Positions 23,414 through 41,898 of a DNA stretch of 64,000 nt are shown here, one piece after another. Source of the DNA: Cellulomonas fimi (GTDB lineage: Bacteria > Actinomycetota > Actinomycetes > Actinomycetales > Cellulomonadaceae); assembly GCF_028583725.1 (NCBI RefSeq), contig NZ_CP110680.1, forward strand, positions 2,356,001-2,420,000, written 5' to 3'. The notes beneath the pieces were generated by a model that saw only the letters and a list, made by a program, of their open reading frames with translations, did no database searches and was not told the DNA's origin. The position numbers and the translations under genes are program-made. Each line of letters opens with the position of its first letter. The stretch's first letter is position 1.

Positions 23414-23529
23414 CCGACCGGCAGGTGGGACCGCACCGCCGCACCCCTCGACTCCCGCCCCCGGGTGCCGCACCATCGACGTAGCGCCGGACCGGCGGCG
23501 GCCCACCAAGCCGAGGTGGAGGTCCCTCG

Positions 23530-23805
23530 ATGACGTACCCGACTCCCCAGCTGGTCGCCTCCGGCGTCCCCTACGCCGTCCGCACCGTCAACGACCGGTC
23601 CCCGTCGAGCATCGGCGACTTCGACGGGCTCGTCGCCGTCGCCGTCGAAGGAGTCACGGGAGCGCACGTCATCCACGGCGTCAGCACCCACGCGGGCGGG
23701 GCCGTGCGCCTCTACGAGAAGGGCGAGGACGGCGTCGGCAAGGACATCCGCACCTGGGACATCCACGCCGGCACGCCCGAGGGCTTCACCGCGACCCCGC
23801 GGTAG
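23530..23805 (+). CDS. Small protein of unknown function
   Basis: 91 residues, ATG with GGTGGAGG ten bases upstream. The sequence is soluble and beta-rich in appearance (AVAVEGVTGAHVIHGVSTHAGGAVRL) with no signal or membrane segment. I do not recognise it. It lacks the N-terminal proline of tautomerases, so it is not an obvious substitute for the missing HpaF isomerase. It lies 116 bp after hpaI, probably as a separate unit, and faces the zinc-ribbon gene. Confidence 0.65.
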   Translation: MTYPTPQLVASGVPYAVRTVNDRSPSSIGDFDGLVAVAVEGVTGAHVIHGVSTHAGGAVRLYEKGEDGVGKDIRTWDIHAGTPEGFTATPR

Positions 23806-23903
23806 GCGCACGGACGACGCTGGAAGGGTGTCGCTTCTCGGTGGAGCTCACCTGGCTCGCCGACCGGCGCGCCGGCGCCGCGCATCCCGCCGCGTGCTGC
23901 GGG

Positions 23904-25292
23904 TCAGCGCCGCAGGAACGTGAGCTCGGCGATCGAGACCGTCCCGCCGTCCCCCGTCACGGGCGCCGCGACGTCGACCACCGTCAGGCGGGCCGTCGTG
24001 ACGCCGTCGACCTCGAGCGGGACCTCGTGCACCGGCTCCGTCCCGTCCAGCGTCAGCCGCTCGCAGTCACCGTTCGACAGCTGCAGGTCGACGACCCGCG
24101 GGACGTGCTGCGTGGACCACGCGGACGAGTCCCGGGTCAGACCCGCGTAGACGCGGACGGCGTCGAGCCGCACGGGCCCGTCGAACTCGACCACGAGCGC
24201 GGGCGCGGGCGACGCCCCGCACTCGTCGGGCAGCGCTGCCGCCGGGTCGGCCTGCCACGGCGCCGACCACGCGCGAGTCTCCTGCCCGTCGACGGCCCAC
24301 GGTGCGGTGTCCTGCGCCGGCGGTGCGGGCACCGGGTCGGTCACCGCGGACGTGACCGGGACGGCGACGAGCGGTCCGAGCACGAGCTTGCCGCCCTCGC
24401 GCCAGAGCCACGCGCCCGGTGCCTGCGTGAGGGCGCCGAGCACCACCGCCACGAGCGCGACGCCCAGCACGCGCGTCGCGGTCGTGCGGCCGGACACGGG
24501 GCGGTCGAAGCGCACCCGACGACGCCCGCCGACGGTGCGCGCGGCCCGCCGGAACGCGGCGCGCGAGGTGGGACGCGGTGGTGCGGCGGGCGGTCGCCCG
24601 ACGGGTGTCGTGCGCTCGACGGCGCCCAGCCGGGCACCGCAGTCGCAGAACCGACGCCCCGCCACGGGAAGACGCCCGCAGACGACGCACCCGCCCTCGA
24701 CGGCCGTGACCGCCGCGGTGCGACGGGCGGGCGTCGCGTGCACCGGGGACCGTGCGCGGGCCGGGAGCACGGGCTCGACACGGGCGTCGGTCGCCGGCGA
24801 CGCGGCATCGCGGCGCGAGGGGGGTCGGGGGGTGAGCCTGGCCGGGCCGAGGTCGCGCACCGACGTCGGGATGCGGTGCACGGGTGCGGCGACGGGCCGC
24901 CCGCGCGCAGGCTGGTCCGTCGCCGGGAGCACCGGTCGCACGATCGGGACGCCGGCCGGTGCGGACGCCGCCGCGGCGGGACCCGACGTCCGCGCGCTGC
25001 TCCCCGGCGGGACCGGGGCATCCCCGCCCGCCCCCGTCACCGGCGTGCGGTCGACGCGGTCTCCCGGCGTCACGGGCCGCCCCTGGGGATGGTCGGCGAG
25101 GTTCGAGGCTCGCCCCGCCGGCGGGTTCGGCCGCAAGGGGACCGCACCACCGGTGCCGGCGCTGCCGGTCGCCCGGTGGACGGGGGTGGGCTCCTCGGTC
25201 GCCGACCACTCGAGGTAGTCCCCGCAGGTGCCGCAGAACCGCTCTCCCACCTGGTACTCCGCACCGCACGCGGGGCACCGGGCGGTGCTCAC
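23904..25292 (-). CDS. Zinc-ribbon membrane protein with C-terminal discoidin/glycan-binding-like domain
   Basis: 462 residues. An N-terminal zinc ribbon has C6, C9, C20 and C23. A Pro/Ala-rich spacer follows. A second Cys cluster (GGCVVCGRLP, RRFCDCGARLG) looks like a degenerate ribbon. One membrane span (VLGVALVAVVLGALT) is near residue 300. The outer 150 residues (WAVDGQETRAWSAPW, VEFDGPVRLDAVRVYAGL) resemble the NADase-type glycan-binding/discoidin fold seen after zinc ribbons in other actinobacterial proteins. The GTG start overlaps the upstream gene's stop (GTGA). Inside-out topology, with ribbons in the cytoplasm and the discoidin outside, is inferred. Confidence 0.75.
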   Translation of the reverse strand: MSTARCPACGAEYQVGERFCGTCGDYLEWSATEEPTPVHRATGSAGTGGAVPLRPNPPAGRASNLADHPQGRPVTPGDRVDRTPVTGAGGDAPVPPGSSARTSGPAAAASAPAGVPIVRPVLPATDQPARGRPVAAPVHRIPTSVRDLGPARLTPRPPSRRDAASPATDARVEPVLPARARSPVHATPARRTAAVTAVEGGCVVCGRLPVAGRRFCDCGARLGAVERTTPVGRPPAAPPRPTSRAAFRRAARTVGGRRRVRFDRPVSGRTTATRVLGVALVAVVLGALTQAPGAWLWREGGKLVLGPLVAVPVTSAVTDPVPAPPAQDTAPWAVDGQETRAWSAPWQADPAAALPDECGASPAPALVVEFDGPVRLDAVRVYAGLTRDSSAWSTQHVPRVVDLQLSNGDCERLTLDGTEPVHEVPLEVDGVTTARLTVVDVAAPVTGDGGTVSIAELTFLRR

Positions 25293-25774
25293 GGGACCCG
25301 CCCCTCGGAGAGCGCGAGGGCACGGTCCCCGTCGTCGGGGTCGGTGCCCGGGGCCTGACCGGAGGCGCGGTCGGGAACCGTCGGCGTGACCGCGCGCAGG
25401 AGCGCCGAGCGGACGTCGACGGGCAGCCCGCCCTCGTCGACCGCCGCGAGCGTCAGGATGCGCGGCCCCGGGCCGTCCGTGACGCGTCCGACGACATCTC
25501 CGGCAGCGACCTGCTCCCCGTCGAGCCCGGGGTCGGGTGCCAGCGCTCGGTACGACCACGTGGTGCCGTCGGCGGCACGCAGCTCGCAGCGGGCGAGCGC
25601 CTCGTCGGTGCGCAGGACGCCCGCGACGACGGCGTGCACGCGCGTGCCGGGTCGCGCGGCGAGGTGGGCGTCCGGCGGGCTGGCCGGCCCGTCGACGGGC
25701 ACGACGTGGTGCATCGGCGCGACGACCGTCCCTGCTGCCTCGGGGCCGCGCCCCGGCGTGCGACTCTCCCCCAT
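25289..25774 (-). CDS. Degenerate M23/LytM-like small protein
   Basis: 161 residues with no signal peptide. The core (GTRVHAVVAGVLRTDE, then DGTTWSYRALAPDPGLDGEQ, VAAGDVVGRV) follows the beta-strand pattern of peptidase M23 folds, where dG...Y.hL...v..G..V..G..iG..v is typical. The zinc ligands of active M23 enzymes (H...D and HxH) are absent. If it belongs there, it is a binding module and not a peptidase. ATG at 25774 has GAGGGAGG 7 bases upstream. It is coupled by GTGA to the zinc-ribbon gene and divergent from the NlpC/P60-dynamin operon. Confidence 0.6.
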   Translation of the reverse strand: MGESRTPGRGPEAAGTVVAPMHHVVPVDGPASPPDAHLAARPGTRVHAVVAGVLRTDEALARCELRAADGTTWSYRALAPDPGLDGEQVAAGDVVGRVTDGPGPRILTLAAVDEGGLPVDVRSALLRAVTPTVPDRASGQAPGTDPDDGDRALALSEGRVP

Positions 25775-25905
25775 GAGCGCCTCCCTCACCAGTGCACCGC
25801 GAGCGGCAGGCCCGCGTCAATTGCCCCCTTCGTCCCGACCTCACCGGCGCAGGTAGCATCACGGTGTGGCCTGGCTCACACGGCCGCACGCGGGGGGATC
25901 GCAGC

Positions 25906-26892
25906 ATGACGGCGACGCACGGCCCGGCATCGGGTGCCGCACGGGCCTTCCTCGACGCTGCCGTCGCGCAGACCGGCGACACGTACGTGTTCGCGACCAA
26001 CACCGCGCCGGACGACCCCGACCCGGAGGTCTTCGACTGCTCCGAGCTCGTGCGCTGGGCGGCCCGCCGGGCCGGTGTCACCGTCCCCGACGGGTCGTGG
26101 CTGCAGTACCTCTCGCTGTCCGAGCAGGGTGGGGAGATCAGCGTGGAGGAGGCGCTGCAGACGCCCGGCGCGCTGCTCTTCTCGTTCTCGTCCAAGCCGA
26201 CCCCGACGAGCGGTCGACCCGACCAGGCACACGTCGCCATCAGTCTCGGGAACGGGCAGACGATCGAGGCGCGCGGACCCCGGTGGGGTGTCGGCTCGTG
26301 GGACGCGGCCGGCCGGTTCCAGTACGCCGCGGTGATCCCGGGACTCGGGCTCGCGGTGCCCGACGGCGCGTCGCCGGACGCGGGCCTGTCGCCGGAGGCG
26401 GGGACGGACCCGCCGTCGGGCGAGCCGGTCGACCCCGAGGGTGACGGTCTCACGACCGAGCTCGAGATGATGCTCCGCACCGACCCCGCCGACGCCGACA
26501 CGGACGGCGACGGGCTGTCGGACGGGTTCGAGATGACCCGGAGCGGGACCGACCCGTTGTCGGGCGACATGGACGACGACGACGTCCCCGACGCCGTGGA
26601 GCTGCTCCTCGGCACGGACCCGCGGGCGCCGGCCGGAGCCGGTGGGGCCGGGTCCCTGAGCGCGGAGCTGGACGCGCTGATGCAGGCACCGGGAGCGACG
26701 GGGGACAGTGACGGCGACGGCTTCGTCGACTGGCAGGAGCAGAGCGCCGGTACCGACCCCGTCGACGCCACGAGCTCCCCTCTCGCGCAGGCGCCGGGCC
26801 CGGACCTGGACGAGTCGCGGTCCGCGGGGTCGGCGAGCACCGTCGTCGGCACGGACGTGGACGTCGACCTCGACGCCGACCCGGCGACGTGA
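25906..26892 (+). CDS. NlpC/P60-family protein with thrombospondin type 3-like calcium repeats
   Basis: 328 residues. Residues 5-150 look like a C40 (NlpC/P60) domain: nucleophile Cys45 in EVFDCSELVRW and His109 in DQAHVAISLGNG. Residues 176-288 hold acidic DxDxDGxxD repeats (ADTDGDGLSDGFE, GDSDGDGFVDWQE) of the calcium-binding thrombospondin type 3 or EF-hand-like kind. The tail is Asp-rich. No signal peptide precedes the enzyme domain, which is odd for a cell-wall hydrolase with calcium sites. ATG at 25906 has GGGGGAT upstream. Its stop overlaps the first dynamin-like gene (GTGA), so it is made with them. Confidence 0.75.
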   Translation: MTATHGPASGAARAFLDAAVAQTGDTYVFATNTAPDDPDPEVFDCSELVRWAARRAGVTVPDGSWLQYLSLSEQGGEISVEEALQTPGALLFSFSSKPTPTSGRPDQAHVAISLGNGQTIEARGPRWGVGSWDAAGRFQYAAVIPGLGLAVPDGASPDAGLSPEAGTDPPSGEPVDPEGDGLTTELEMMLRTDPADADTDGDGLSDGFEMTRSGTDPLSGDMDDDDVPDAVELLLGTDPRAPAGAGGAGSLSAELDALMQAPGATGDSDGDGFVDWQEQSAGTDPVDATSSPLAQAPGPDLDESRSAGSASTVVGTDVDVDLDADPAT

Positions 26893-28745
26893 GCGACGCC
26901 GAGGTCACCGCCGCGGCGGCCGCCGAGCTCCTGGGCGAGGCGGCCCGCGAGCTGTCCCGGTGGGGACTGACCGACCTCGCCGACGACCTGCGCCGTGCGG
27001 CCCGTCGCCGTGGCGACGACCCCGCCGTGGTGCTCGTGGTCGGGCCGCCGCGCAGCGGGAAGAGCTCGCTGGTCGACGCGCTGCTGGGGGTCCGTCTGCT
27101 CGCGGGCGACCCGGTGGTGCCCACGGCCGTGCCGGTCGTCGTCGGCTGGGGGGCACGCCCGTCCGCACGGTTCGTCCCGGCGGACGGCACCTCGCAGGTC
27201 GGCCCCCGGCCCGTCCTGCCGCGGGTGCCGCCGGACGCGGTCGCGACCGCGGCCGGGGCGCCGCCGGCCGGCGTGGCGTCCGTCGAGGTCGAGCTCCCGC
27301 GAGCGCTGCTCGCCGCGGGCCTCGTCCTCGTCGACACGCCCGGCAGCGGCGGTGGGATCGCCGGGCCGAGAGCCGCGGCGGTGCTGCGTGCCGCGGCCGA
27401 CGCGGACGCGGTCGTGTACGCCGTCGACCCGGCCCGCGAGCTCGGCGAGCAGGACGTCGGACTGCTGCGGGCCGTCGTCGACCTCTGCCCGGAGGTCGTC
27501 GTCGTCCTGACGAAGACCGACGCCTACCGCGAGTGGCGGCGCATCCAGGCGCTCGACTCGTTGCACCTGGGCGAGGCGGGTCTGCCGGTCCAGGTGCTGG
27601 CGACGTCCGCACCGCTGCGCGTGCACGGCCTCGCCACGGCGGACGACGACGCGCTCCGTGCGTCCGGCTTCCCGCAGCTCGCCGACCACCTGCGACGACG
27701 CGTCCTCGGGACCAGGGCCGCCGCGCGGGACCGGCAGGCCGCACGCCTCGTCCAGCACGCGCTGCGCCACCTGCTCGCCGAGGCGCGCACGCGCCGCGAG
27801 GCACTCGCGGGCCCCGGGGACCCCACGCTCGTCGCACGGTGGCGCGCCGCACGCGAGGAGGCGGAACGCCTGCGGACGCGGTCGGCGCGGTGGCAGCAGA
27901 CCCTCGCCGACCAGGTCGCCGAGCTGGCCGCGCAGGCGGACGCCGACCTCACCGCGAGACTCGTCGACGTCCGGCACGAGTCGGCCCGGCGCCTCGAGTC
28001 GGGCGACCCGACGGCGGGGTGGCGCGAGTTCGAGCCGTGGCTGTACGAACGGACGAACGACGAGCTGCTGGGGCATGCGACGCACGTGCGGGCGCTCGCC
28101 GACCGGGTGGTCGCCGACGTCGCGGCGCTCTTCGACGCGCAGGTCGTGGAGCTCTCGCGCACCCTCGACCTCGCTGTCAGCGCCCAGCCGGTGTCGTCCG
28201 CGCTGCTGCGTGCGCCGGCGGCGCGGCGTGGCGAGCGCGCCGACCTGGGACTGCACGCCGTGCGCGGCGTCTCGCTCGGGGCGTCGCTCGGGGTGGCGCT
28301 GGCGCACGGGGCGACGCTCCTCGCGGGCGCGGCGATCTCCGGACCCCTGCTCCCCGTGACCGCCGGCGTCGCGGCGGTCCTCGTCGGCGGGCGCATGCTG
28401 CGCTCCGCCCGCGAGGCGCAGCGCAGGGCGCGTCGCACCGAGGCGCAGCGCGCTGTCACGGCCTACCTCGACGAGGTCGAGGTGGCGGCGCGGCGGGCGA
28501 CGCGCGACACCGTCCGCCGCGTGCAGCAGGAGGTGCGGGACCACTTCACGGACGTCGCGGGCGAGATGGTCCGCTCCGCGGACCGGTCGCTCCGTGCCGT
28601 CGAGCGGGCGGTCCGCGGCGCGCGCACCGAACGGGCCGGCGAGCTGCGACGTCTCGACGACGACCTGCGGCGGCTGCGCCCGCTCGTGGCGGCCGCCGAC
28701 GGGCTGCTCGCCGCGACCGCCGGAGCCACGGTGGCGGGGACGTGA
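26889..28745 (+). CDS. Dynamin-like GTPase 1 with membrane-inserting segment
   Basis: 618 residues. GTPase motifs: G1 GPPRSGKSS (52-60), G3 DTPG (149-152) and G4 TKTD (208-211). Long helical regions follow (about 260-420 and 500-600, many charged heptads). Between them a hydrophobic pair (GVSLGASLGVALAHGATLLAG, then LLPVTAGVAAVLVGG) near 455-500 could insert in the membrane as in bacterial dynamins. Such proteins oligomerise and fuse or remodel membranes. It is coupled by GTGA overlaps to the gene before and after. The pair with the next GTPase recalls tandem bacterial dynamins such as IniA/IniC and DynA/DynB. Confidence 0.82.
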   Translation: MSDAEVTAAAAAELLGEAARELSRWGLTDLADDLRRAARRRGDDPAVVLVVGPPRSGKSSLVDALLGVRLLAGDPVVPTAVPVVVGWGARPSARFVPADGTSQVGPRPVLPRVPPDAVATAAGAPPAGVASVEVELPRALLAAGLVLVDTPGSGGGIAGPRAAAVLRAAADADAVVYAVDPARELGEQDVGLLRAVVDLCPEVVVVLTKTDAYREWRRIQALDSLHLGEAGLPVQVLATSAPLRVHGLATADDDALRASGFPQLADHLRRRVLGTRAAARDRQAARLVQHALRHLLAEARTRREALAGPGDPTLVARWRAAREEAERLRTRSARWQQTLADQVAELAAQADADLTARLVDVRHESARRLESGDPTAGWREFEPWLYERTNDELLGHATHVRALADRVVADVAALFDAQVVELSRTLDLAVSAQPVSSALLRAPAARRGERADLGLHAVRGVSLGASLGVALAHGATLLAGAAISGPLLPVTAGVAAVLVGGRMLRSAREAQRRARRTEAQRAVTAYLDEVEVAARRATRDTVRRVQQEVRDHFTDVAGEMVRSADRSLRAVERAVRGARTERAGELRRLDDDLRRLRPLVAAADGLLAATAGATVAGT

Positions 28746-30226
28746 CCTCCTCCCCCGTCACGCTGACCGACCGGGTCCGGGCGCTGGTCCTCGACGCGGC
28801 GGCGGCGTGCGCCGGGACGAGCACCTCGGCGAGGCTGCTCGCGCAGGCCGCGCGGCTCGACGAGCCGTTGCGGGTGGCGCTGGTCGGCGCGACGAAGGCC
28901 GGCAAGTCGACCCTCGTCAACGCCCTCGTCGGCGAGCGTGTCGCGGCCACGGACGCGGCGGAGTGCACCCGGGTCGTCACGACGTACGAGCACGGTCGTG
29001 CCGCGCAGGCGTGGGCGCACCCGCTCGTCGGGTCCGCGTTCCAGGTCCCCTTCCGGCACGAGGAGGGCCGGACGACGCTCGACCTGGGCGGCGCCGACGC
29101 GACCGGGCTGCGCAGCATCGCGGTGACCGTGCCGAGCGCCGCGCTGCAGGTGGTGACGCTGGTCGACACCCCGGGTGTCGGGTCGCTGTCCGCCGGCACG
29201 TCGCAGCGCACGCTCGACTACGTCGCCGGGACGGACACCGACCGTCCCGATGCGGTCGTCGTCCTGCTGCGGCACCTCGACGACGCCGACGTCGGCTTCC
29301 TCGACCCGTTCCACGACGCGGCGGCGACGCCCGCGAGCGCCGTGAACGCCGTGGGGGTGCTGTCGCGTGCCGACGAGCTGGCGCCGGGTCGTACGGACTC
29401 GTCGTCGGTCGCGGAGGCCGTCGCCGCGCGGCACCGGGACCACCCCGCGCTGCGGGCGCGTGTGTCGGGAGTCCTGCCGGTGTCCGGGCTGCTCGCCGAG
29501 ACGGGTGCCACCGTCCGTGAGGACGAGTTCGCCGCGGTGGCCCGGCTGGCTGCGCTCGACGTGGACGACGCGGACCGGCTGCTGCGGTCCGTCGACGACC
29601 TGCTCGTGCCGCGACCGGTGGGCGACCCGGACGTCGACCCGGTCGCGGTCCGGTCCGCGCTGCTCGACCGGTTCGGCCTCGGAGGGCTGCGGCTGTGCGT
29701 GGTGCTCGTCGGTTCCGGCGTGTGCCCGGACGCGGCCGCCCTGGCGGCCGAGCTGGTGCGGCGCAGCGGGATCGACGCGCTGCGGTCCGTCGTCGTGGAC
29801 CAGTTCGCCGGCCGCGCGGAGGTGCTGCGGGCGGCCACGGCGCTCGACCTCGTCGCGGGAGCGCTCGACGGGCTCGCTCCGGGCGACGTCGAACGGGTGC
29901 GGCTGCGCGCCGAGCAGATCACGGTGTCCGCGCACGAGTTCGCCGAGCTGCGCCTCCTGGAGGCGATCCGGACGGGGACGCTCGGTGCCGCCGACGACGG
30001 CACGCTCGCCTGTGCCGACACCGTCCTCGGCGGTCGCGGCACGGAGGTCCGCAGCCGGCTCGGGCTCGCGCCTGACGCAGGTGACGAGGAGGTCGACGCC
30101 GCGCTCTGGGAGCAGCTGCAGCGATGGCGCCGCGTCGCCGAGCACCCGTTCGTCCGGCCGGACGTGCGTCGGGCTGCGCAGGTCCTGCGGCGGACGTGCG
30201 AGGGGCTGGCCGCGGCGCGGCGGTGA
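28742..30226 (+). CDS. Dynamin-like GTPase 2
   Basis: 494 residues. G1 is GATKAGKST (49-57), G2 threonines lie in ECTRVVTTY, G3 is DTPG (142-145), and G4 is a weak SRAD instead of N/TKxD. The C-terminal 250 residues are helical with no membrane segment, ending in a basic helix. This asymmetry with GTPase 1 (one partner with and one without a membrane insert) is usual for tandem bacterial dynamins, which often act as heteromers. It is the last gene of the three-gene operon and is convergent with the propeller gene. Confidence 0.8.
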   Translation: MTSSPVTLTDRVRALVLDAAAACAGTSTSARLLAQAARLDEPLRVALVGATKAGKSTLVNALVGERVAATDAAECTRVVTTYEHGRAAQAWAHPLVGSAFQVPFRHEEGRTTLDLGGADATGLRSIAVTVPSAALQVVTLVDTPGVGSLSAGTSQRTLDYVAGTDTDRPDAVVVLLRHLDDADVGFLDPFHDAAATPASAVNAVGVLSRADELAPGRTDSSSVAEAVAARHRDHPALRARVSGVLPVSGLLAETGATVREDEFAAVARLAALDVDDADRLLRSVDDLLVPRPVGDPDVDPVAVRSALLDRFGLGGLRLCVVLVGSGVCPDAAALAAELVRRSGIDALRSVVVDQFAGRAEVLRAATALDLVAGALDGLAPGDVERVRLRAEQITVSAHEFAELRLLEAIRTGTLGAADDGTLACADTVLGGRGTEVRSRLGLAPDAGDEEVDAALWEQLQRWRRVAEHPFVRPDVRRAAQVLRRTCEGLAAARR

Positions 30227-30228
30227 GG

Positions 30229-30257
30229 CCCGCACGCGTCACGGTGCGACGCGCGGG
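30229..30257. terminator. Imperfect hairpin between convergent operons
   Basis: A GC-rich inverted repeat with a 2-nt bulge lies in the 45-bp gap between the second GTPase and the propeller gene. It is a likely but weak bidirectional terminator. Confidence 0.35.
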
Positions 30258-30271
30258 CGGACCGCCCGCCG

Positions 30272-32641
30272 TCACGCGAAGACGTCGACGGCGACCCCGT
30301 TGGAGGGCAGGACCTGGCCGTCGTCCACGTGCACCGTGGCGAGGAGGGTGCCGCGGTAGTACGAGAGGACGTCGACGTCGAACTCCAGGACGGTGTCGCC
30401 GGTCCGGACGTCGTACCAGCAGACGAGCGACCACCCCCCGGTCTGGTTGGTGTGGACCGTGCAGTCCCCCGGCGCGACGATCCGGAAGGCGTCCGGGAAC
30501 GGCACCACGATGCGGTACCCGAGCTGACCGGCCCCCGTGACGGAGACGGTGACGTGTGCCGTGCTGCTCAGCAGCGGCATCGCGGTCTCGGTCGAGCCGT
30601 TGATGGTGAGCGTCGACGTGACGACGGCCGGGGTGCCGCGGACCACCGTGATCGGCGCCTCGACCGAGGCCGCCGAGGCCCCCGCGTCCTGGCGGTAGTC
30701 GACGCTCACCGTCACGGCGCCGCTGCCGGCGCCCACTGCGACGAAGGTGATCGTCAGGTCGGCCCGGTCCGCCGCGGTGAACGGACAGGCGAACTCACCG
30801 CTGCCTCCACCGGGACCGCACGACGGCGGCATCTCGGCGATCCCGAGCGGGACGAGCGCAACCAGGTAGAGCACGAAGTCGCCCGACTCGGCCAGCGTGT
30901 CGGCGCTCACCGTCAGCGTCGTGCTCTCCCCCACCGCGACGTTCGGAGGGCTGAACTGTGCCGCCACGGTCGTCACGTCGCTGACCACGGCCCGGAACGT
31001 CGCGCGCACGGTGCGGTCGGACGCGACGACCGCGCACGTGGTCGTCCCGTCCGCGGTGGTGAGGCCGTCGCAGCCGTCCCAGCCGAGGAGCTCGACCGTG
31101 TCCGTCGAGCGCCAGGCGACCAGCAGGGTGCTGGCGCGCGCGACGGTGTACCGGCAGGGTGCGGCCGCGTCGCACGTCGGCGGACCGGAACGCGGCGCGA
31201 CGTTCTCGACGTCGCCGACCGTGACGGTCCCCGGGCCCACGACGACGACGGTGACCGTCACGAGACCGCCCTCCACCGGGGGTGCCGACGGCGGCTCCTG
31301 CGGCAGAGCCGGAGGGTCCGTCCGCGGTGCTGCGCGCGGGCTCGCCGTCGTCGGGCCGCCCTGAGGAGCCGGGCCGGCGCGTGGTGTCGGCGTGGACTCG
31401 GCGGTCGGTGCGGGTGTCGGCGGCGGCGCGTTCGTGGGGGGCTCGACGGGTGGCCCGGGCGCCGGGAGCCGGCCGGGCTCGTCGGTGGCGCCGGGCTCGA
31501 AGAGCCCTTCGTCGGGCGCGGCGACGTCGTACTTGGCGATCTCGGTGGCGTCTCCGTCGAGGTCGATCACGCCGGCCCGCTCGCTCGACGGGTCGTTGTA
31601 GAACGCGAACCCGTCCCTCGCCGCGAGCTGGAACGGCATGTTCGGGTCGAGCACGTCGGCGCGTCCGACGACGGCCCGCGACGCCACGTCGACCACGACG
31701 ACCTCACCCGTCGAGTAGTTGGGCACGAACGCACGACCGTGCACCTCGACGGGCGCGCCGAGGTCCTGCCCAGGTTCGGCGACGCCGGGCACGACGCCGT
31801 CGCACCCGTCGCTGCGGTCGGCGACGTCCGTGAGGTGCAGCACGCCGCGGGCGCCGGACGCCGTGAGGACGACGGTCCCGGAGGTGGAGCGGCCGACGCG
31901 CAGGGTGTCGTCGGCACGGTCCACGGCCAGGCAGGTGACGCGTGACGTGCCGCGGTCGCCGAGGAGCCGGACGCGGTCCCGGCTCGGGTCGGCGACGGCG
32001 GCGGTGCCGCCGACGAGGACGAGGGTGCCCGCCCCGGGCTCGGCGACGGCGGGCCACTCGTCGGTGCTGCCGTCGGCGAAGCGCACGAGGTCGCCGGTGG
32101 TGCTGTCGAGCAGCCACAGCGTGCCGTCGTCGTCGACGACCGACGCCCCGTCGGCGACGGACCCGACCAGGCTGGCGGGCCGGTCCCGGGGGCGCAGTGT
32201 GTCGGGGTCGGCCTCGACGACGACGCCGGAGCGCCCGTCGACCGCGAACACCGCCTGCCGACCCGCGGCGACGGTCAGGCCTTGCGCGGCGCCGTCGAGG
32301 GGGCTCGCCGTGAGCGTCTGCCACGAGACGGGGTCGACGCGGGTCACGGTGCCGGTCGTCCGGTTCACCGCGTAGCCGGTCTCGCCGGCCTGGACCGCGG
32401 TGAGGTCCTGGTCGGCGTCGGCGACCTTCACCTGCGCCGCGAGCGCGCCCGACGGGCCGCTGAGCAGCGCGAGCTGCCCGACCTTGGCCGACGCGACCCA
32501 CACCGAGCCCCCGCCGACGTCCACGACGTCGGTCGGATACCCCTCGTCGCGCGCGACGACGCCGAGCGCGCCGAGCGCCAGCACCGCGGCGATGAGCCCG
32601 ACGACGTGCCGCCGGAACCATCTCGCCGCACGCCGGCTCAC
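30272..32641 (-). CDS. Membrane-anchored beta-propeller/Ig-like surface protein
   Basis: 789 residues. One span at about 12-30 (VVGLIAAVLALGALGV) is followed by an external region to residue 400 with repeated blade-like units (GGGSVWVAS, DDGTLWLLDSTTGDLVRF, GRAFVPNYSTGEVVVVD), read as a propeller. A Pro/Thr/Ala linker spans about 405-480. The last 300 residues are beta-rich, with cysteine pairs (CDAAAPCRYTV, CDGLTTADGTTTC) and Ig-like strands. The GTG start overlaps the stop of the transglutaminase-like gene. It is last in the MoxR-DUF58-transglutaminase operon, where FN3 or Ig proteins are often found in actinobacteria (from memory). Ligand unknown. Confidence 0.7.
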   Translation of the reverse strand: MSRRAARWFRRHVVGLIAAVLALGALGVVARDEGYPTDVVDVGGGSVWVASAKVGQLALLSGPSGALAAQVKVADADQDLTAVQAGETGYAVNRTTGTVTRVDPVSWQTLTASPLDGAAQGLTVAAGRQAVFAVDGRSGVVVEADPDTLRPRDRPASLVGSVADGASVVDDDGTLWLLDSTTGDLVRFADGSTDEWPAVAEPGAGTLVLVGGTAAVADPSRDRVRLLGDRGTSRVTCLAVDRADDTLRVGRSTSGTVVLTASGARGVLHLTDVADRSDGCDGVVPGVAEPGQDLGAPVEVHGRAFVPNYSTGEVVVVDVASRAVVGRADVLDPNMPFQLAARDGFAFYNDPSSERAGVIDLDGDATEIAKYDVAAPDEGLFEPGATDEPGRLPAPGPPVEPPTNAPPPTPAPTAESTPTPRAGPAPQGGPTTASPRAAPRTDPPALPQEPPSAPPVEGGLVTVTVVVVGPGTVTVGDVENVAPRSGPPTCDAAAPCRYTVARASTLLVAWRSTDTVELLGWDGCDGLTTADGTTTCAVVASDRTVRATFRAVVSDVTTVAAQFSPPNVAVGESTTLTVSADTLAESGDFVLYLVALVPLGIAEMPPSCGPGGGSGEFACPFTAADRADLTITFVAVGAGSGAVTVSVDYRQDAGASAASVEAPITVVRGTPAVVTSTLTINGSTETAMPLLSSTAHVTVSVTGAGQLGYRIVVPFPDAFRIVAPGDCTVHTNQTGGWSLVCWYDVRTGDTVLEFDVDVLSYYRGTLLATVHVDDGQVLPSNGVAVDVFA

Positions 32642-34971
32642 GAGGGCCCACCCCGGTCCCGGTGCCAGTCGCGGTCGCCGTACCGCGGGACCCGGTGCGG
32701 GAGCAGGGGCCGCGGGTCGAGCCACGCCCGGGCGCGGTGCCACCAGGACCGGTCGGCGTCGAGCAGCTGCCGGAGCTCGGCCTCCAGGTCCCACGCCTGC
32801 TCGGCGGCGGCGTCCTCGGGCTCGTCCTGCGCGAACACGGCGGTCGACACGAGCGGTGCGAGGACCGCGACGGCGGTCCCTGCCGGTCCGCCGAAGCGGT
32901 CGGCTGCGTCGGCGGCGACCTCCTCGGTCGTGCGGACGGGTGACACGTCCAGGCCGCGTTCGCGGAACCGGTCCGTGGTCTCGTGCCACGCGGCGACGAC
33001 GCGGTCGGCGGGCGCGCCCGACAGGCGGCGGCGCCGGCGGCGCCACCACTTCGCCACGACGACGCCCGCGAGGACGGCAGGGACGAGGGCGAGAAGCCCG
33101 AGCGCCCACGGCAGGACGCGTTCGACGAGACCGCCCAGCAGCCCGCGTGGGCCCTCGTCCCCGGGTTGGGCGTCGACCCGGGGGGCGGTCTCGTCCGCGG
33201 TCGTCTCCTCCTGGTCGCCCGTCTCCGGCTCCGGCTCCTCCGGGGCGGTGGCGCGCTCGCCCGTGACGTCGAAGTGGACCCAGCCGGCGTCGTCGGTCGC
33301 GACCTCGGGCCACGCGGCGGCCCGCAGGGTCGTGACCGTGTAGACGTCGCCGTCCCGCTCCGACTCGTCGAGCATGTACCCGGTGGCGACCCGGGCGGGG
33401 TACCCGAGCGAGCGGGCCATGACGACGAAGGCGGCGGCGGTCTGCTCGTCGGTGACGCGCCCGACGCCCGTGGCGACACGTTGCAGCGCCGCGTAGGAGT
33501 GGCCGGGCAGGGCGTTGAGGTCCGCGGGCAGCGTGCGCAGGTACGTGGCGAGCGCCTCCAGCTGGGCCCACGGCTCGGGGACGGCGGCGGTGAGCTCGGT
33601 CGCGAGGCCCGCCAGCGTGGGCGCGGGGGTCCCGTCGTCCGCGGGAGGCAGGTCGGGTGGTGCGGGGACGAGCAGGAGGGGGTCGCCCGGAGGGACGCGC
33701 GCGGGGCCCGTGGTCGCGAGCGCGGCGAGGGTCGACGGCGCCGGGACGGTCGCGTCGACCGTGTAGGTGTAGCCACGGAACGGCTCCGCGGTGGTCACCA
33801 GGAGCCCCGAGCCGGCGTCGACCGCGACGTCGTCCCCGTCGACCGCGAACGGGGCGCCCACATGGGGCAGGTAGGGCGGCTCGAGCCCGGTGATCGTGAC
33901 GTCGAGATGGACGACGTCACCGACGACGTTCCGGGCGGGCAGGACGGGTCCGGTGCGGACGAAGCGCGCCGAGCTCGTCCACAGCGCCCCGTCGTAGCGG
34001 TCGAGCGCGGCGACCCGGAGCCGGTCGACCCCGGTCCCGCGGGGCCGCACCTCGACCGTGAACACGTCGTACGGCGAGTGGCGTCGACCGTCCTGCTGAC
34101 GCCGGACGTCGGAGAGCGGGCTGATGCGCGCGTCGAGCTCGACCGGGCCGGTGTAGTGGTCCCGGGGGTCGAACCGCGCGGCCCCGTTCGCGACCGGCGC
34201 GAGCGCAGCACCGACGACCGCGACGGCACCGACGGCCGCGGTGACGGGCAGACCGAGGACGAGCCTGCCCGCGCGGCTGTGGGTCCAGACCCGTTCGGCG
34301 TGCGTGCCGGGTTGCGCGTCGGCGGCGCCCGCCACGGTGGCGCCCGGAGGCAGCGCGGGATCGCTGCGGTCGGCTCGCAGCAGGAGGACGGTGAGCGCCG
34401 CCGCCAGGTAGGCGAGCGTCACGGGCCAGCGGGGCGTGAGGACGTCCGCGGTGAGGAGCAGGCCGGTCAGCAGCGTGACGAGGGACGGCAGCAACGGCGC
34501 GAGCGCCGCGGGCCTGCGCACGAGCAGGGCCGTCGCGAACCCTCCGGCGTAGGCGAGCAGCACGGGGAGCGCCACGACCCGGCCGTCCGGCTCGACGGGC
34601 GGCACGACGGTGAGCATCCGCTTGAGGCCGCCGGCGATCGTGTCCGCGGCGCCGCTGAGGGCCGGCACCCCGGGAAGGCCGACCTGCGTCAGGCCGGGCA
34701 CGAGCAGGTACACCGCGAGCGGGACGAAGAGGACGGTCGCGGCGAGCGTGGCGACGCCCGCGGACCACCGCAGCAGGCCGGTGCCGACGCCGACGGCCGT
34801 GCCGACCACGAGCGCGATCGCGACCGTGAGCACCCAGCCGTCGTCGCTGTAGAACGGGGCGAACGACCACAGCGCGACAGCCGTCGCCGCGACGCACAGC
34901 GCGAGGTCCGCGGCCGCCCACGCCCAGGAGGGCGAGCGCGTCCGGGCGGGGTCGGCGGCCGGTCCGCTCAT
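32638..34971 (-). CDS. TgpA-type transglutaminase-like membrane protein lacking catalytic Cys and His
   Basis: 777 residues. About six N-terminal helices (20-260) precede an external region with a transglutaminase-core domain at 455-570. The block [20 protein letters not shown] is intact. The nucleophile position before EQ is Thr507-Asp508 instead of Cys. The usual HAW is AAW (Ala552). Only Asp568 of the triad remains in WVHFDVT. A last span at 615-640 is followed by a cytoplasmic DUF4129-like tail. It is therefore probably a binding or scaffold pseudoenzyme. ATGA and GTGA overlaps tie it to DUF58 and the propeller gene. Confidence 0.85.
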
Positions 34972-36107
34972 CTGCGGACCTTGGCGTTCCATGCGCTCGC
35001 GAACTGCTCGCTGGTCCTCACGTTCAGGCAGAACACGCCGCGCACCGGTGCTGCGGGCCGACCGAGCCGCTCTCCGACCTGCACCATGCTCGCCATCGTG
35101 AAACGCGGCCGCACGACGCCGACGACGGCCCGGTGCCCGTCCTCGGGCTGTCCGGTGACGACGCCGAGCGACACGCCCTCGTGGTCGGGCCTCATCCCCG
35201 CGAGTGCGCGCAGGCCCGGGTCCTGCGCGGACGGCTGCACGGCCGCCAGCAGGTCGAGCAGGGCGGTCGGCGACCGCCCGTCGGCGACCGCCGTGTCGCC
35301 CCCGGTGGTGCGGAGCGTGAACGGGAAGCCGGCCTCGCACCCGGACACCGCGAGCGACGCCGCGACCCGGACGGCGTCCTCGAACGACTCCTCGTCGTAC
35401 GCGGCGGCGCTGGTGTCCAGCACGACCATCAGCTGCGGCTCGTTCGGCACGACGTTGTCGCGCACCATGAGCTGGCCCACGCGTGCGGTCGAGCGCCAGT
35501 GCACCTGCCGCGGGTCGTCACCCGGCTCGTAGGGGCGCAGCGCGTGGAACGCGACGCCGCCTCGTGGCGCGCCCGCGGTCGTCGCGCCGTCCTGGTCGCG
35601 CGAGCGCCCCGTGGGGACAGGGGCGACGCGGTGGGTCCGCGGGTGCACCGTGAGGACCGAGCGGGTCGCGAAGTCGCGCGACGTGTGCATGAGCCGGAAC
35701 GGGTCGGACACCCCCAGCGTCAGGGGGCCGACGCGGTAGACCCCGCGACGGTCGGTGGGCAGGGGGTAGGCCGACCGGTGGGTGGCCCCCGCGGGCAGGC
35801 TGGGGAGCGGCACGACCACGGTGCGGTCGCCGACGTGCTCGACGGCGAGCACCGGGAGGCTGCGACGGCTGCCGATGTTCGTGAGGGCGATCACGCTCCG
35901 TGCACCCTCGCCCTCGGCGACGCGGGTGGGCTCCAGCGTCCGCACCGCCTCGACGCTCGGGCGGACGAGGATGCACGCCGCGGCGACGGCGAGCGCGGCC
36001 GCGCAGGCGAGCCCGAGCGCGACCACCTCGGGGTAGTCGAGCAGTGCGCCGGCGACGAGGAGCAGCACCGCGACTACGCCGAGCACCCGCCCTGACGAGG
36101 TCAGCAC
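34968..36107 (-). CDS. DUF58 domain membrane protein
   Basis: 379 residues from a GTG. Two hydrophobic helices at 8-48 are followed by a beta-rich region and the DUF58 core [20 protein letters not shown], then a vWA-like segment ([20 protein letters not shown]). The Asp-x-Ser-type metal site is partial (DTSAA). DUF58 proteins nearly always accompany MoxR ATPases, which are thought to act on them as chaperones. It starts 3 bp after moxR and overlaps the transglutaminase-like gene by 4 bp. Confidence 0.88.
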
Positions 36108-36110
36108 GTG

Positions 36111-37094
36111 TCACGCCTCGACGCGCTGCTGCGGTACCGGGATGGACGCGAGGAGCGTGCGGACCAGCTCGTCGGCGGTGTGGCCCTGCAGCTCCGCGTC
36201 CGGTTGCAGGACCATGCGGTGCGCGAGCACGGCCGGGGCGGCCGCCTTGACGTCCTGCGCGGTCACGAACGCCCGGCCCTGCGAGGCGGCCTGCGCGCGT
36301 GCCACCATCAGCAACCCGACGGCGCCACGTGGGCTCACGCCGAGCACGAGCTCGGACATGGTGCGCGTCGCGGACACGAGGGTGACGACGTAGTCGACGA
36401 CGGCGGGCGCCGCGTAGACGACCCGCGACGCGATCTCGATCATCTGCACGAGGTCGGCGGCGGACAGCACGGGCTGCAGGTGCTCCGGGGTCTCGCCGCT
36501 CGCCCGGCTGATGAGGACGTCGCGCTCCGCCTCGTGCCCCGGGTACCCCATCGTCACGCGCATCTGGAACCGGTCGACCTGCGCCTGCGGCAGTGCGTAG
36601 GTGCCGCCGTCCCCGAGGGGGTTGAGCGTGGCGAGGACGATGAACGGGCGGGGCACCGCGTAGGGCACGCCGTCGACCGTCACCTGACGCTCCTCCATGC
36701 ACTCGAGGAGCGCGGACTGCGTCTTGGGCGAGGCGCGGTTGATCTCGTCGCCGATGACGATGTTCGCGAACACCGCGCCGGGATGGAACGTGAACTCCCC
36801 ACGCGCCGTGTCGTAGACCTGGACGCCGAGGACGTCCGACGGCAGCAGGTCGGGCGTGAACTGGATGCGGCGCATGCTGCCCTCGAACGAGCTGGACAGC
36901 GCCCGCGCGAGCGACGTCTTGCCGACGCCGGGCACGTCCTCGATGAGCAGGTGCCCCTCGGAGCACAGGCACAGGACCGCCTTGCGGACGACGTCGTCCT
37001 TGCCTCGGATGAACGAGGTCACGTTGCCGACCAGCGCCTCGAAGCGCTCGGCGAACCACTCGACGCGACCTGCTTCGCTGGTGTCCCCTGCCAC
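36111..37094 (-). CDS. MoxR-family AAA ATPase
   Basis: 327 residues. Walker A EDVPGVGKTSLARAL, the MoxR motif FTPDLLPSDVLGVQVYD, Walker B NIVIGDEINRASPKTQSALLECMEERQVTVDG, sensor 1 VLATLNP, and C-terminal lid residues. It is the full family length. It starts with GTG preceded by GGGGGA and is the first gene of the operon with DUF58, the transglutaminase-like protein and the propeller protein. MoxR proteins are thought to assemble or activate partner complexes. The divergent promoter contains a 9-bp inverted repeat. Confidence 0.93.
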   Translation of the reverse strand: MAGDTSEAGRVEWFAERFEALVGNVTSFIRGKDDVVRKAVLCLCSEGHLLIEDVPGVGKTSLARALSSSFEGSMRRIQFTPDLLPSDVLGVQVYDTARGEFTFHPGAVFANIVIGDEINRASPKTQSALLECMEERQVTVDGVPYAVPRPFIVLATLNPLGDGGTYALPQAQVDRFQMRVTMGYPGHEAERDVLISRASGETPEHLQPVLSAADLVQMIEIASRVVYAAPAVVDYVVTLVSATRTMSELVLGVSPRGAVGLLMVARAQAASQGRAFVTAQDVKAAAPAVLAHRMVLQPDAELQGHTADELVRTLLASIPVPQQRVEA

Positions 37095-37110
37095 CGTTCC
37101 CCCACGACCA

Positions 37111-37135
37111 CGTCACGAATGTCGAGTTCGTGACG
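37111..37135. promoter_or_regulatory. Inverted repeat in the moxR / Ig-Hsp70 divergent promoter
   Basis: CGTCACGAA and TTCGTGACG form a perfect 9-bp inverted repeat with a 7-nt centre, 17 bp upstream of the moxR GTG. Its position between two operons that appear to work together makes it a candidate operator for a dimeric regulator controlling both. Confidence 0.45.
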
Positions 37136-37201
37136 ATACCCGCGGCGTTCGGCGGCGGGAATCACCCGTGCACGACTCGTCCCTTTCGTGCAGCCGCGCC
37201 C

Positions 37202-37207
37202 TATGAT
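37202..37207 (+). promoter_or_regulatory. Candidate -10 box for the Ig/FN3-Hsp70 operon
   Basis: TATGAT lies 39 bp before the ATG of the Ig/FN3 membrane protein and differs from TATAAT by one base. No clear -35 is seen. Confidence 0.35.
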
Positions 37208-37245
37208 CCGAGAGCCAGGACCTTCGGGGGCTCAGGGGGTGGCCC

Positions 37246-38580
37246 ATGGTGCGGCCAGACGTCGTCGTCCGCGACACGCGCGTCGAGGTCGCCCCCGGCG
37301 AGGTCGTCGAGGTGGCCGCCTCGGTGCACAACCCCTCCACGACGGTCGAGGACTACGAGCTCTCCGTCGTCGGTGTGCCCGGTGCCTGGTCGAGCGTCGC
37401 GCCACCCCTGGTCGCGCTGATGCCCGACGAGCAGCGCGACGTGACGGTGGTCCTGCGGCCCGGGACCGGCTGGTCCGCGCCCGTCGGCGAGCTCGCGTTC
37501 GGCCTCCGGTGCCGGTCCACGGTCGACCCTGCCGTGTCCGCCGTCGCGGAGGCCGACGTCGTCGTGACGGCCCAGCACGGCGCGTCCGTGCGTCTCCTGA
37601 CCGTGTCGGGGACGGGACGCTGGCGGGGCCGCTACCGCGTCGACGTGACCAACACCGGCTCGGTCCCCGCGCAGGTGCAGCTCGAGGTGACGCAGCCCGA
37701 GGACGAGCTGGCGTTCGCGCTCCGCGACGCCACGCTCGAGGTCCGGCCCGGCGCGACGGCGAGCGCCTACCTCGTCGTGCGTCCACGCCGCCCGGGCGGC
37801 CCGGTACGCCGGCACGCGTTCTCGGTGGCGTGGCGCCTGGACCCGCCGACGGCCGAGGGCGTCGTCGAGGGGGCGTTCACGCAGCGTCCCGTCGTCCCGC
37901 GGCGTCCGGTGGTGACGGGTGCGGCGATCGCGGTGGTGGCCGTCGCGGCCCTCGCCGGGTACCGCGCGTGGCAGCCCGCTCCCGACCCCGCACCGGTGGC
38001 CGCGCCCGCCCCGGTGCTGATCTCCGCGGACGCGGTGCCGGGCGGGGTGCGGGCCGAGTGGCAGGCCGTGCCCGGCGTCGAGGGCTACCAGCTCCGCCGG
38101 ACCGTCGGGGACGGTGGGGCCGTCGAGGGCACGCGCGACGTGGACGCGGCACAGACGGCCGACGTGTGGCCGGACCTGCCTGCCGGCGAGCACTGCCTCA
38201 CCGTCGTGGCCGTGACCGGGGGCGAGGCGAGCGACCCGAGCGACCCGCTGTGCGCGACCGTCGCCGCCGCCGAGCCCGTGTCGGGCGTCGTCGTGGTGCA
38301 CTACGTGGCGCCCATCGCCGACGTGGGCGCGTACGACCGCACGCGTGAGCAGGCCACGCTGCTCGCCGACGCTGGCGTCACGGTGGAGATCGCCAGGAGC
38401 GCCGAGGTCCCGGCCCTCGCGGCGCGGGGTGAGCCGTCGTACGTGCTGTACCACGGCGGCTTCGCAGACCGCGCCCAGGCCGACGCGTACTGCGCGCTGC
38501 TCGCGGACGCGGTCGCGATGTGCGAGCCCGTCGAGCCGTTGCCGGCGGACGAGGCGTCGCCGGCCGGCGGCGGCGGATGA
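37246..38580 (+). CDS. Ig-like/FN3 single-pass membrane protein
   Basis: 444 residues. Two N-terminal Ig-like beta domains (1-110 and 111-205; VNPSTTVEDYELSV-type and VDVTNTGSVPAQVQLEV motifs) resemble NEW/COG1470-type domains. They precede one span at 221-239. After it comes an FN3-like domain (255-340, VPGVEGYQLRR, AGEHCLTVVAV), then a SPOR-like C-terminus (SYVLYHGGFADRAQADAYC). There is no signal peptide, so the N-terminal half should be cytoplasmic and the FN3/SPOR-like half outside (inference). ATG has a GGGGGT-rich leader. It overlaps the Hsp70 gene by 4 bp (ATGA). Confidence 0.7.
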   Translation: MVRPDVVVRDTRVEVAPGEVVEVAASVHNPSTTVEDYELSVVGVPGAWSSVAPPLVALMPDEQRDVTVVLRPGTGWSAPVGELAFGLRCRSTVDPAVSAVAEADVVVTAQHGASVRLLTVSGTGRWRGRYRVDVTNTGSVPAQVQLEVTQPEDELAFALRDATLEVRPGATASAYLVVRPRRPGGPVRRHAFSVAWRLDPPTAEGVVEGAFTQRPVVPRRPVVTGAAIAVVAVAALAGYRAWQPAPDPAPVAAPAPVLISADAVPGGVRAEWQAVPGVEGYQLRRTVGDGGAVEGTRDVDAAQTADVWPDLPAGEHCLTVVAVTGGEASDPSDPLCATVAAAEPVSGVVVVHYVAPIADVGAYDRTREQATLLADAGVTVEIARSAEVPALAARGEPSYVLYHGGFADRAQADAYCALLADAVAMCEPVEPLPADEASPAGGGG

Positions 38581-40022
38581 GCTACTCGCTGAGCATCGAC
38601 GCGGGCACGACGTTCACGTCGGCGGCGACCTGGCGGGACGGGCGCGCGACGACGGTCACGCTCGGCGCCCGGTCCGACGCCGTCCCGTCGGTCCTGTTCC
38701 TGCGGGACGACGACGTGATGCTCGTCGGGGAGGCGGCCGAGCGCCGCGCGGCCGGCGACCCGACACGGGTCGCGCGCGAGTTCAAGCGGCGGCTCGGCGA
38801 CGACGTCGGGTACCGCCTCGGCGACCGGTCGTTCTCGGCGGCCGACCTCACCGGCACCCTCGTGCACTGGGTGCTGGACCAGGTCAGCGAGCGCGAGGGC
38901 GAGGCACCGGCGCACACCGTGCTCACGTGCCCGGCATCGTGGGGCTCCTTCCGCAGGGACGAGCTGGTCCGGGCCGCAGGGCGCGCGGGGCTGGCTCGGG
39001 TGGGTCTGCTCGACGAGCCCACCGCGGCGGCCGCCTACTACGCGACGCTGCGCCGCGTCGACGCCGGTGCGCTCGTCGCGGTGTACGACTTCGGGGGCGG
39101 GACGTTCGACGCGGCGGTCCTGCGCAAGACGGGCGACGGGTTCGAGAGGTGCGGCGAGCCCGGCGGCGACGACGAGGTCGGCGGTGTGGACTTCGACGTC
39201 GCGCTGCTGCGTCACGTCGCGGCCGTCGCGGGCGTGGACCTCGCGTCGATCGACCTCGAGGACCCGGACGTGCGCGCCGCCGTCGCGGAGCTGCGGGCCG
39301 CGTGCGTCGCGGCGAAGGAGGCGTTGTCGTCCGACGTGGTCGCCGACGTGCACGTCGTGCTACCGGGGACGGACCGTCGGGTCCGGGTGACGCGCGCGGA
39401 GCTGGAGGACCTCGAGGATGTGCGCGAGCCGGTCCGGCGGACGGTCGAGTGCCTGGCACGGACGCTCGACGGTGCGGGTGTGCGGCCCGCGGAGCTCGAC
39501 GGTGTGCTGCTCGTGGGCGGGAGCAGCCGGATCCCGCTGGTCGCGCGCACGATCGCCGCGGAGCTGGGCGCCCCGACGCTGGTCGACGTCCATCCCAAGC
39601 ACGCGGTGTGCCTCGGCGGAGCGGTCGGCGTGGGAGGGCGGACGCGTGCCCCCGCCGCTGCGCGGGCGTCCCGGAGCCCGGACGTCGGCCCGCGGGACGC
39701 CCCGCCGGTGCCGGAGCCGGTGGAGCCGGCCGACGCAGCCGTCGCGCGCCGGATGTTCGCGCAGCTCCCCGCGGAGCCGCCGGGCTCGCTGGACGTGGAC
39801 CTCGCGCGGACCGGGCTCGTCGCGCCGCTGGACGTGGTCACGGACGCGCCACGGCCGCGCGTGGCGACCACCTGGCGCGTGACCGACCGGGACGAGCCGG
39901 TGGTGGCACGCCTCGACGCGGCGGCGCCGGCCGTGGCACGGCGTCAGTGGGTACCGGCGGCGGCGCTGCTCGTCGGCATCGGCGTGCTCGTCGCCGTGCT
40001 CAGCGTCCTCGGCGGCCGCTGA
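38577..40022 (+). CDS. Membrane-anchored Hsp70-family ATPase without substrate-binding domain
   Basis: 481 residues. The actin/Hsp70 ATPase motifs are present: phosphate 1 SIDAGTTFTSAA, connect 1 DEPTAAAAYYATL, phosphate 2 YDFGGGTFDAAVL and adenosine VLLVGGSSRIPLVAR. After about residue 370 a Pro-rich linker leads to a single C-terminal span (VPAAALLVGIGVLVAVLSVL). The beta-sandwich substrate-binding domain of DnaK is missing. It is therefore a tail-anchored, cytoplasm-facing ATPase. Hsp70-like proteins of this kind are known beside bacterial dynamin genes in actinobacteria (from memory). It is coupled to the Ig/FN3 gene. Confidence 0.85.
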   Translation: MSYSLSIDAGTTFTSAATWRDGRATTVTLGARSDAVPSVLFLRDDDVMLVGEAAERRAAGDPTRVAREFKRRLGDDVGYRLGDRSFSAADLTGTLVHWVLDQVSEREGEAPAHTVLTCPASWGSFRRDELVRAAGRAGLARVGLLDEPTAAAAYYATLRRVDAGALVAVYDFGGGTFDAAVLRKTGDGFERCGEPGGDDEVGGVDFDVALLRHVAAVAGVDLASIDLEDPDVRAAVAELRAACVAAKEALSSDVVADVHVVLPGTDRRVRVTRAELEDLEDVREPVRRTVECLARTLDGAGVRPAELDGVLLVGGSSRIPLVARTIAAELGAPTLVDVHPKHAVCLGGAVGVGGRTRAPAAARASRSPDVGPRDAPPVPEPVEPADAAVARRMFAQLPAEPPGSLDVDLARTGLVAPLDVVTDAPRPRVATTWRVTDRDEPVVARLDAAAPAVARRQWVPAAALLVGIGVLVAVLSVLGGR

Positions 40023-40048
40023 GCACGACGCGCGTTCAGGAGGACGAC

Positions 40049-41554: not shown

Positions 41555-41634
41555 GCGGTCGGTGGCGGGGACCTTCGCCCCTCGCCGCGCACGCGCCGGT
41601 GCGGTGTGCTGGTGGCGGGAGGACGGAGAGGACC

Positions 41635-41898
41635 ATGGCGGCACACGGACGGGACGAGGCGGCGTTCGTCGCGGCGCACGACGCGCTCGTGACCGCGCGT
41701 CGCGCGCAGGCACGGCTCTGCGCCGCCCTGCGCGGGCGGCGCGGAGTGTGCGGTGTCGGGCTGACGCGGCGGGGCGACGGCTACGCGCTGCGCGTGAACG
41801 TGGTGCACCCGGGGGTGCACGTGCCCGCCGTGGTCGACGGCGTGCCGGTCGAGGTCCGCACGACGGGCCGCTTGACGGCGCACGCCGTGACGGGCTGA
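41635..41898 (+). CDS. Small conserved-type protein of unknown function
   Basis: 87 residues. A helical N-terminus is followed by a beta-rich module (GVCGVGLTRRGDGYALRVNV, then VPAVVDGVPVEVRTTGRL). This module resembles a small domain at the start of some hypothetical trypsin-like proteins, but no protease domain follows. ATG has GGAGAGG upstream. It lies between sucrose phosphorylase and the universal stress gene. Confidence 0.65.
   Translation: MAAHGRDEAAFVAAHDALVTARRAQARLCAALRGRRGVCGVGLTRRGDGYALRVNVVHPGVHVPAVVDGVPVEVRTTGRLTAHAVTG

Follow-up and report, generated by a model that had tools for sequence, protein, structure and literature searches.

A block of eleven genes at positions 23904-40022 of a 64,000-nucleotide stretch of the Cellulomonas fimi genome (NZ_CP110680.1, positions 2,356,001 to 2,420,000; hereafter the window) is, in our judgement, rather probably the envelope-interface module of an actinobacterial extracellular contractile injection system (eCIS) that has been parted from its injector and acts either by itself or in trans with two eCISs located elsewhere in the same genome. 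The eCIS-linked origin of the block is well supported. The genes are designated A to K here, with A and B on the - strand, C, D and E on the + strand, I, H, G and F on the - strand, and J and K on the + strand. Coding frames, set by GC content at third codon positions and codon scoring, bear out the four divergent operons of a first-pass annotation made from the sequence of the window, and its near-universal 4-bp overlaps are exact at six of the seven same-strand junctions, the seventh (G/F) being a 3-bp gap. That annotation described an envelope system of unknown function and missed the key context, which is not visible in the window: in related genomes, the block makes up the accessory half of an island whose other half is an eCIS.

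The block beside an eCIS in congeners

Among 81 sampled genomes of the same genus, 17 have a match to E at 1e-10 and 11, including the window genome, carry the block. All ten other block-bearing congeners keep the order C to K, with Pvc16 and eCIS_core genes upstream of C and, between C and D, a LuxR/GerE gene, a known eCIS companion according to an excerpt of PMC8213781. All ten have a counterpart of A on the outer side of the eCIS cluster (in G728 on a separate contig end), the order of the island being A at the far end, the eCIS genes between, and C to K at the near end. Eight of these counterparts were found by A itself and those of G022 and G095 by similarity to the G018 gene; a counterpart of B beside A is called in six of the ten. 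The idea that A and B are private to the window, prompted by a first tblastn search that missed them, was abandoned when these counterparts were found across the eCIS in relatives. The window shows the same succession of genes and strands (A, B / C / D-E / I-H-G-F / J-K). Strands agree across congeners except in G022 and G732, where one extra copy of I has the + orientation; I is present in one to three copies at this place, and G095 has an extra copy beyond K.

The injector genes of the relatives are recognized by Pfam as gp19 tube, sheath, AAA, eCIS_core and Pvc16 in G022, and as baseplate J, gp25, PAAR, GPD/base_V, CIS_tube with LysM, and gp19 in G018; the gene caller missed the sheath in G747 and the AAA gene in G019. 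An additional gene of ~1600 amino acids lies between C and LuxR in G747 and G728.

The block is a single unit, because a single empty site is found in the close relative G721 and the order is conserved in all ten of the other block-bearing congeners, as the first-pass annotation had guessed in proposing one machine. In G721, sequences 88% identical to window positions 21161-23806 and 40038-42851 lie ~20 bp apart, and the stretch missing between them, 23807-40037 (16.2 kb), contains the eleven genes and no others. No match to E was found in G721, which has one short match, of 35 residues and at a contig start, to the zinc ribbon of A. The block edges (160 and 120 bp) share one inverted 8-mer and no exact direct repeat of at least 8 bp. 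The block may have been gained in the window genome or lost in G721.

Linkage outside the genus and gene trees

The linkage extends beyond the genus. In family f106, G942 has tube, sheath, eCIS_core, AAA and Pvc16 genes with C, LuxR, D, E, I and H, and a shorter stretch of G897 has eCIS_core, AAA, Pvc16, C, LuxR, D and E; these two were read from among five strong C matches in the family, the weaker G944 and G822 being left out. G114 has Pvc16, LuxR, C, D, E, F, G, H and two copies of I on one contig and J and K on another, while Kibdelosporangium has Pvc16, AAA, C, D and E near a contig end. K, J, D and E lie between sheath/tube and AAA genes in G210 and G156, and Kribbella has K, AAA, Pvc16, J, D and E. 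The profile of C is matched in 8 of 394 genomes of the class, the window genome included. Sixteen loci with C, D and E were read (ten congeners, G114, Kibdelosporangium, G942, G897, Pseudonocardia L261 and the window), and eCIS genes adjoin 14 of them; the window has none and L261 shows none. The block is not a general companion of eCIS: Pvc16 occurs in 22 of 58 sampled genomes, most of which lack the block.

Trees were made by a quick method for E (96 rows; >400 bits, ~420 residues), D (94 rows; >300 bits, 450 residues; the broken D of L261 excluded) and K (64 rows; >250 bits, 330 residues). By the SH-like approximate likelihood ratio test (SH-aLRT), the window groups in the E tree with 12 eCIS-block rows and L261 (99), in the D tree with 14 other rows, every one eCIS-linked (99) and ten congeners placed next to it (93), and in the K tree with ten block rows, G114 and L261 (99). 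The label "eCIS without C" in these trees also covers loci where J stands alone (L261 and the J-K stretch of G114). In these trees, D, E and K of the window belong to eCIS-linked clades. Because eCIS-linked lineages surround the window in the trees, loss of the injector would be a simpler history than later insertion of the core.

Proteins of the block

Pfam domain names were obtained for C, D, F, G, H, J and K. D (26889..28745, + strand) is an IniA-type dynamin, identified by Pfam as Dynamin_N and aligned with the IniA structure 6j72 across 582 residues (E 9.8e-61), its homology being full-length and its GTPase motifs intact. E (28742..30226, + strand) is a second dynamin-like GTPase by motifs, which are intact, and by profile; from its position and length we take it to be IniC-like. 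K (38577..40022, + strand) matches the Hsp70 profile over the ATPase part (3-370 of 599), with no match to the substrate-binding domain of a chaperone, and ends in a hydrophobic helix (461-479) that would serve as an anchor. The two dynamin-like GTPases and the tail-anchored Hsp70 of the first-pass annotation are thereby confirmed. Elsewhere in the same genome (C1, ~2.889-2.899 Mb; L134, 5529-15362), and distinct from the D-E pair, lies another group of at least three dynamin-family GTPase genes, interrupted by one for an ABC-type ATPase.

J (37246..38580, + strand) has an Ig-like N-terminal half (FixG_C), a hydrophobic helix (221-239), FN3 and a weak SPOR match (E 0.061), in agreement with its earlier description as an Ig/FN3 protein. 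A protein search with J returned the protein of the window itself and no other among 8000 candidates scored. J-like proteins were detected in 29 of 297 genomes at order level and in 30 of 396 at phylum level, with conservation mainly in the N-terminal ~250 residues, and another clear eCIS gene is present in 27 of 34 stretches fetched around the better matches (the other seven being from G258, G267, G114, G507, G559, G449 and G569). The J-like copies of G517 and G687 lie between sheath and AAA genes and have ricin domains at the end, which agrees with what has been described for Sco4256-4258. In Streptomyces coelicolor, Sco4256-4258 have a conserved N-terminus, a single transmembrane segment, a variable C-terminus and a position in the contractile injection system (CIS) cluster; they are reported to fill the lumen of the tube, and their loss left most tubes empty and stopped stress-induced death (PMC10066040). 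J has the conserved N-terminus and the one transmembrane segment of this plan, and its family occurs in eCIS loci; it is by plan and position that J is likened to these proteins.

F (36111..37094, - strand) is a MoxR AAA+ ATPase (AAA_3) with Walker A and B motifs intact, and G (34968..36107, - strand) is a DUF58 protein with two hydrophobic helices, both first-pass assignments being upheld by Pfam. H (32638..34971, - strand) is a TgpA-like membrane protein with TgpA_N and a transglutaminase core by Pfam. The stretch in which we presume the catalytic cysteine of the transglutaminase family to lie is devoid of cysteine in all 12 H proteins examined, and the catalytic histidine is lost in two of them (window and G095); the Cys-His-Asp triad of an active transglutaminase is thus incomplete, and the earlier label of pseudo-transglutaminase fits. 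Because the cysteine is lost in the 12 copies examined, H is likely to have a structural or binding role. I (30272..32641, - strand) has an N-terminal hydrophobic helix and a beta-propeller followed by further domains; it has no NCBIfam match, and its identification as a propeller is substantiated by a profile match to 1l0q at 1.6e-7, with YncE chains at 0.012 and worse.

C (25792..26892, + strand; 25906 is a likelier start than 25792) is an NlpC/P60 protein with TSP3 repeats by Pfam, just as the first-pass annotation had an NlpC-P60 protein with calcium-type repeats. The match of the C profile to the window protein begins at 102 of 449, and the lysozyme-like N-terminal domain SLT_3, seen in G022 and aligned in other congeners, is missing.

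A (23904..25292, - strand; this is the full frame, of which the codon caller gave the last 203 residues only) has zinc ribbons, a hydrophobic helix (275-293) and a discoidin-like C-terminal domain. The zinc ribbons of the first-pass annotation stand, but its discoidin-like domain is sub-threshold, the match of the C-terminus to "NADase-type glycan-binding" (discoidin-like) scoring 30.5 bits, below the 38-bit cut-off. B (25289..25789, - strand), which overlaps A by 4 bp, is M23/lipoyl-like; it has no H-x-H motif and no Pfam or NCBIfam match, and its best PDB match is no better than E 0.29. The label "M23-like" is to be held loosely, coming solely from the match of the G018 counterpart to Peptidase_M23 (E 0.0033, below cut-off). 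Zinc ribbons are also present at the N-terminus of D in Kribbella (L315, 7750-9996) and, in an unclear frame, upstream of a B-like domain in Pseudonocardia L261 (~872-1500).

The NTPase motifs of the block are intact after long divergence, which argues for continued function. A promoter and terminator scan of the locus returned no sites.

Outside the block, the window contains a tellurite-type stress gene (TerD/TerF-vWA, 43516-44802) and, at 15021-23413, genes of an acid-degradation type: a thiamine pyrophosphate enzyme, FAA hydrolases, an aldehyde dehydrogenase, a dioxygenase and an HpcH aldolase. Three genes of this stretch have homologues in G005 at a distance of ~9-13 kb from iniB-D-E, and the two dynamin loci may therefore have a common neighbourhood of integration.

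The missing injector

The tube, sheath, baseplate, Pvc16 and AAA genes of a complete eCIS are not found at the locus in the window, which lacks both the eCIS core and the LuxR gene of the congeneric islands. This absence is not due to a contig break, because the window genome is one contig. The whole genome has only two Pvc16 and two sheath matches, belonging to two eCIS loci of other types (C1, 4.282-4.305 Mb and 3.775-3.784 Mb). The first of these loci has its own J-like gene and a LuxR gene, and the sheath match of the second has one TAG inside. The possibility that an eCIS of the block type resides elsewhere in the genome was rejected, the two sheaths being only 53% and 38% identical to it.

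Several observations weigh against the view that the block is a parted eCIS module. No eCIS profile was matched among the called genes of the whole 64-kb window, and both eCIS loci, with sheaths as different as stated, are >1 Mb away, so the present function of the block may have changed. The loss of the lysozyme-like domain of C and of the histidine of H in the window likewise suggests a functional shift. The window rows have long branches (1.16 in the E tree, 1.14 in the D tree), which makes their exact placement unsure, and the preference for loss over later insertion of the core is an argument of parsimony. The tie between J and Sco4256-4258 is one of plan and position rather than direct comparison. 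Pseudonocardia L261 has B, C, D, E, J and K, with B beside C, and neither its 9.6-kb contig nor the stretch read of the J-K contig of G114 has an eCIS gene; L261 is a second possible injector-less case, on a contig too short to judge. D-E-K is common without eCIS: among the best 80 of 501 E loci, any eCIS gene was found in five, two of these having one weak match.

Alternative explanations

One alternative is that the block is a self-sufficient envelope-stress module of the iniBAC type, in which the dynamin pair and the Hsp70 safeguard the membrane when the wall is stressed and the eCIS next to it in relatives is just one client. D is IniA by sequence, and IniA of Mycobacterium smegmatis binds membranes and cuts them with GTP, as an excerpt of PMC6715688 reports. 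Homologues of D-E from other clades follow IniB in G014 and G005 (NCBIfam IniB N-terminal domain above cut-off) and an IniB-like protein in G733 and G024-C5, recognized by a profile to which these loci themselves had contributed. Of the best 80 of 501 E loci, 47 have a called K and 30 an IniB-like gene, the latter by a weak four-row profile and with many weak scores. No eCIS is near the copy in the window, as this explanation would have it, but neither was an IniB-like gene called there: the gene upstream of D is C, not the IniB that precedes the dynamin pair in an iniBAC operon. D, E and K of the window fall within eCIS-linked clades, and none of C, J, H and I was called in the iniB loci that were fetched, although in G178 there are an F and a weak G close by. 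We regard an iniBAC-type module as an unlikely account of the block as a whole, and the dynamin pair with Hsp70 as probably an older actinobacterial unit adopted by one eCIS lineage. A bolder form of the reading preferred here, that the block is an injector-less CIS derivative that has become an independent envelope device (for self-lysis, cargo release or membrane repair) moving between genomes as a 16-kb unit, is possible but doubtful.

It seems improbable that the block works by itself in anti-phage defence or conflict, as a system of the MoxR-vWA-propeller or GTPase-HSP70-FN3 type. Such systems have been described from gene neighbourhoods, and excerpts of PMC7159879 share with the block MoxR, a propeller, a GTPase, FN3 proteins and, beside the FN3 proteins, an Hsp70 without a peptide-binding domain. 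F matches bpMoxR at 30.6 bits (cut-off 27) but scores far higher as AAA_3 (191 bits), and the propeller, which is vWA-fused in the systems of those excerpts, is encoded in the block by a separate gene and accompanied by DUF58 and dynamin-type GTPases; the words "dynamin" and "DUF58" do not occur in that text. The Leo dynamin models of PADLOC match D (7.8e-17) and E (7e-15), other matches being weak, but these models are of single dynamin proteins; assignment to defence by PADLOC was set aside, given that what is conserved next to the block in relatives is an eCIS. That four unrelated operons are neighbours by chance is scarcely credible. D-E, D-E-K, J and MoxR-DUF58 are each found without the others in other genomes. 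Within the genus, the co-occurrence of the operons that the first-pass annotation set as its test holds, all four being together in every one of the ten other block-bearing congeners; the single empty site in G721 and the ten-genome synteny refute chance for this locus.

A proposed mechanism and its parallels

If the block is an eCIS envelope module, as we prefer, we infer the following mechanism. The injector core, from the regulator through to Pvc16 and with it the LuxR gene, would have been lost or shed, leaving the module. J, a single-pass Ig protein of the CIS effector or adaptor type, and K, an anchored Hsp70 ATPase, may hold or release a particle or its cargo at the membrane; D and E, as an IniA/IniC-like pair, would remodel or reseal the membrane at that site, and C would cut peptidoglycan, opening the wall. 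F, G, H and I, together with A and B, might make up a wall-facing platform, powered by ATP, for sensing or assembly, and the cytoplasmic NTPases might be physically linked to the surface domains, as had been suggested at first pass. In the window genome, the module would function alone as a device for envelope damage or remodelling, or in trans with the two unlinked eCISs.

The Streptomyces CIS (CIS-Sc; PMC10066040, PMC12237407) resembles this arrangement in that the block of relatives abuts tube, sheath, baseplate, AAA, eCIS_core and Pvc16 genes and J shares the plan of Sco4256-4258, but the locus in the window has no tail genes. CisA, also a single-pass membrane protein, is needed for CIS contraction in S. 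coelicolor (PMC12237407) and would be the nearest tested parallel to the proposed mechanism. The iniBAC operon, as excerpted from PMC6715688, has a tandem dynamin pair (IniA-IniC) like that of the block, whereas the block has no called IniB and is linked to C, J, F to I and, in relatives, an eCIS. F, G, H and I resemble the bifidobacterial PFNA cluster, which according to an excerpt of PMC12067865 comprises the kinase Pkb2, FN3, MoxR AAA, DUF58 and transglutaminase; MoxR, DUF58 and transglutaminase with an Ig/FN3-type protein are common to both, but the block has no kinase, its transglutaminase lacks the active-site cysteine, and I is a propeller, in up to three copies in relatives. Dynamin, Hsp70, MoxR, DUF58, propeller and transglutaminase are not mentioned in the main texts of PMC10066040 and PMC12237407, nor are dynamin, DUF58 and transglutaminase in PMC8213781, and among the matches listed from the open-licence PMC literature no description of this gene set was found.

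The conserved set of eleven genes neighbouring an eCIS provides named candidates for the docking, firing and exit of Gram-positive CIS through membrane and wall. To CisA, a membrane factor shown to matter for CIS in Streptomyces, it adds dynamins, an anchored Hsp70, MoxR-DUF58 and a wall hydrolase, and a genome that has the module and lacks the injector is a natural test of the envelope side of CIS biology.

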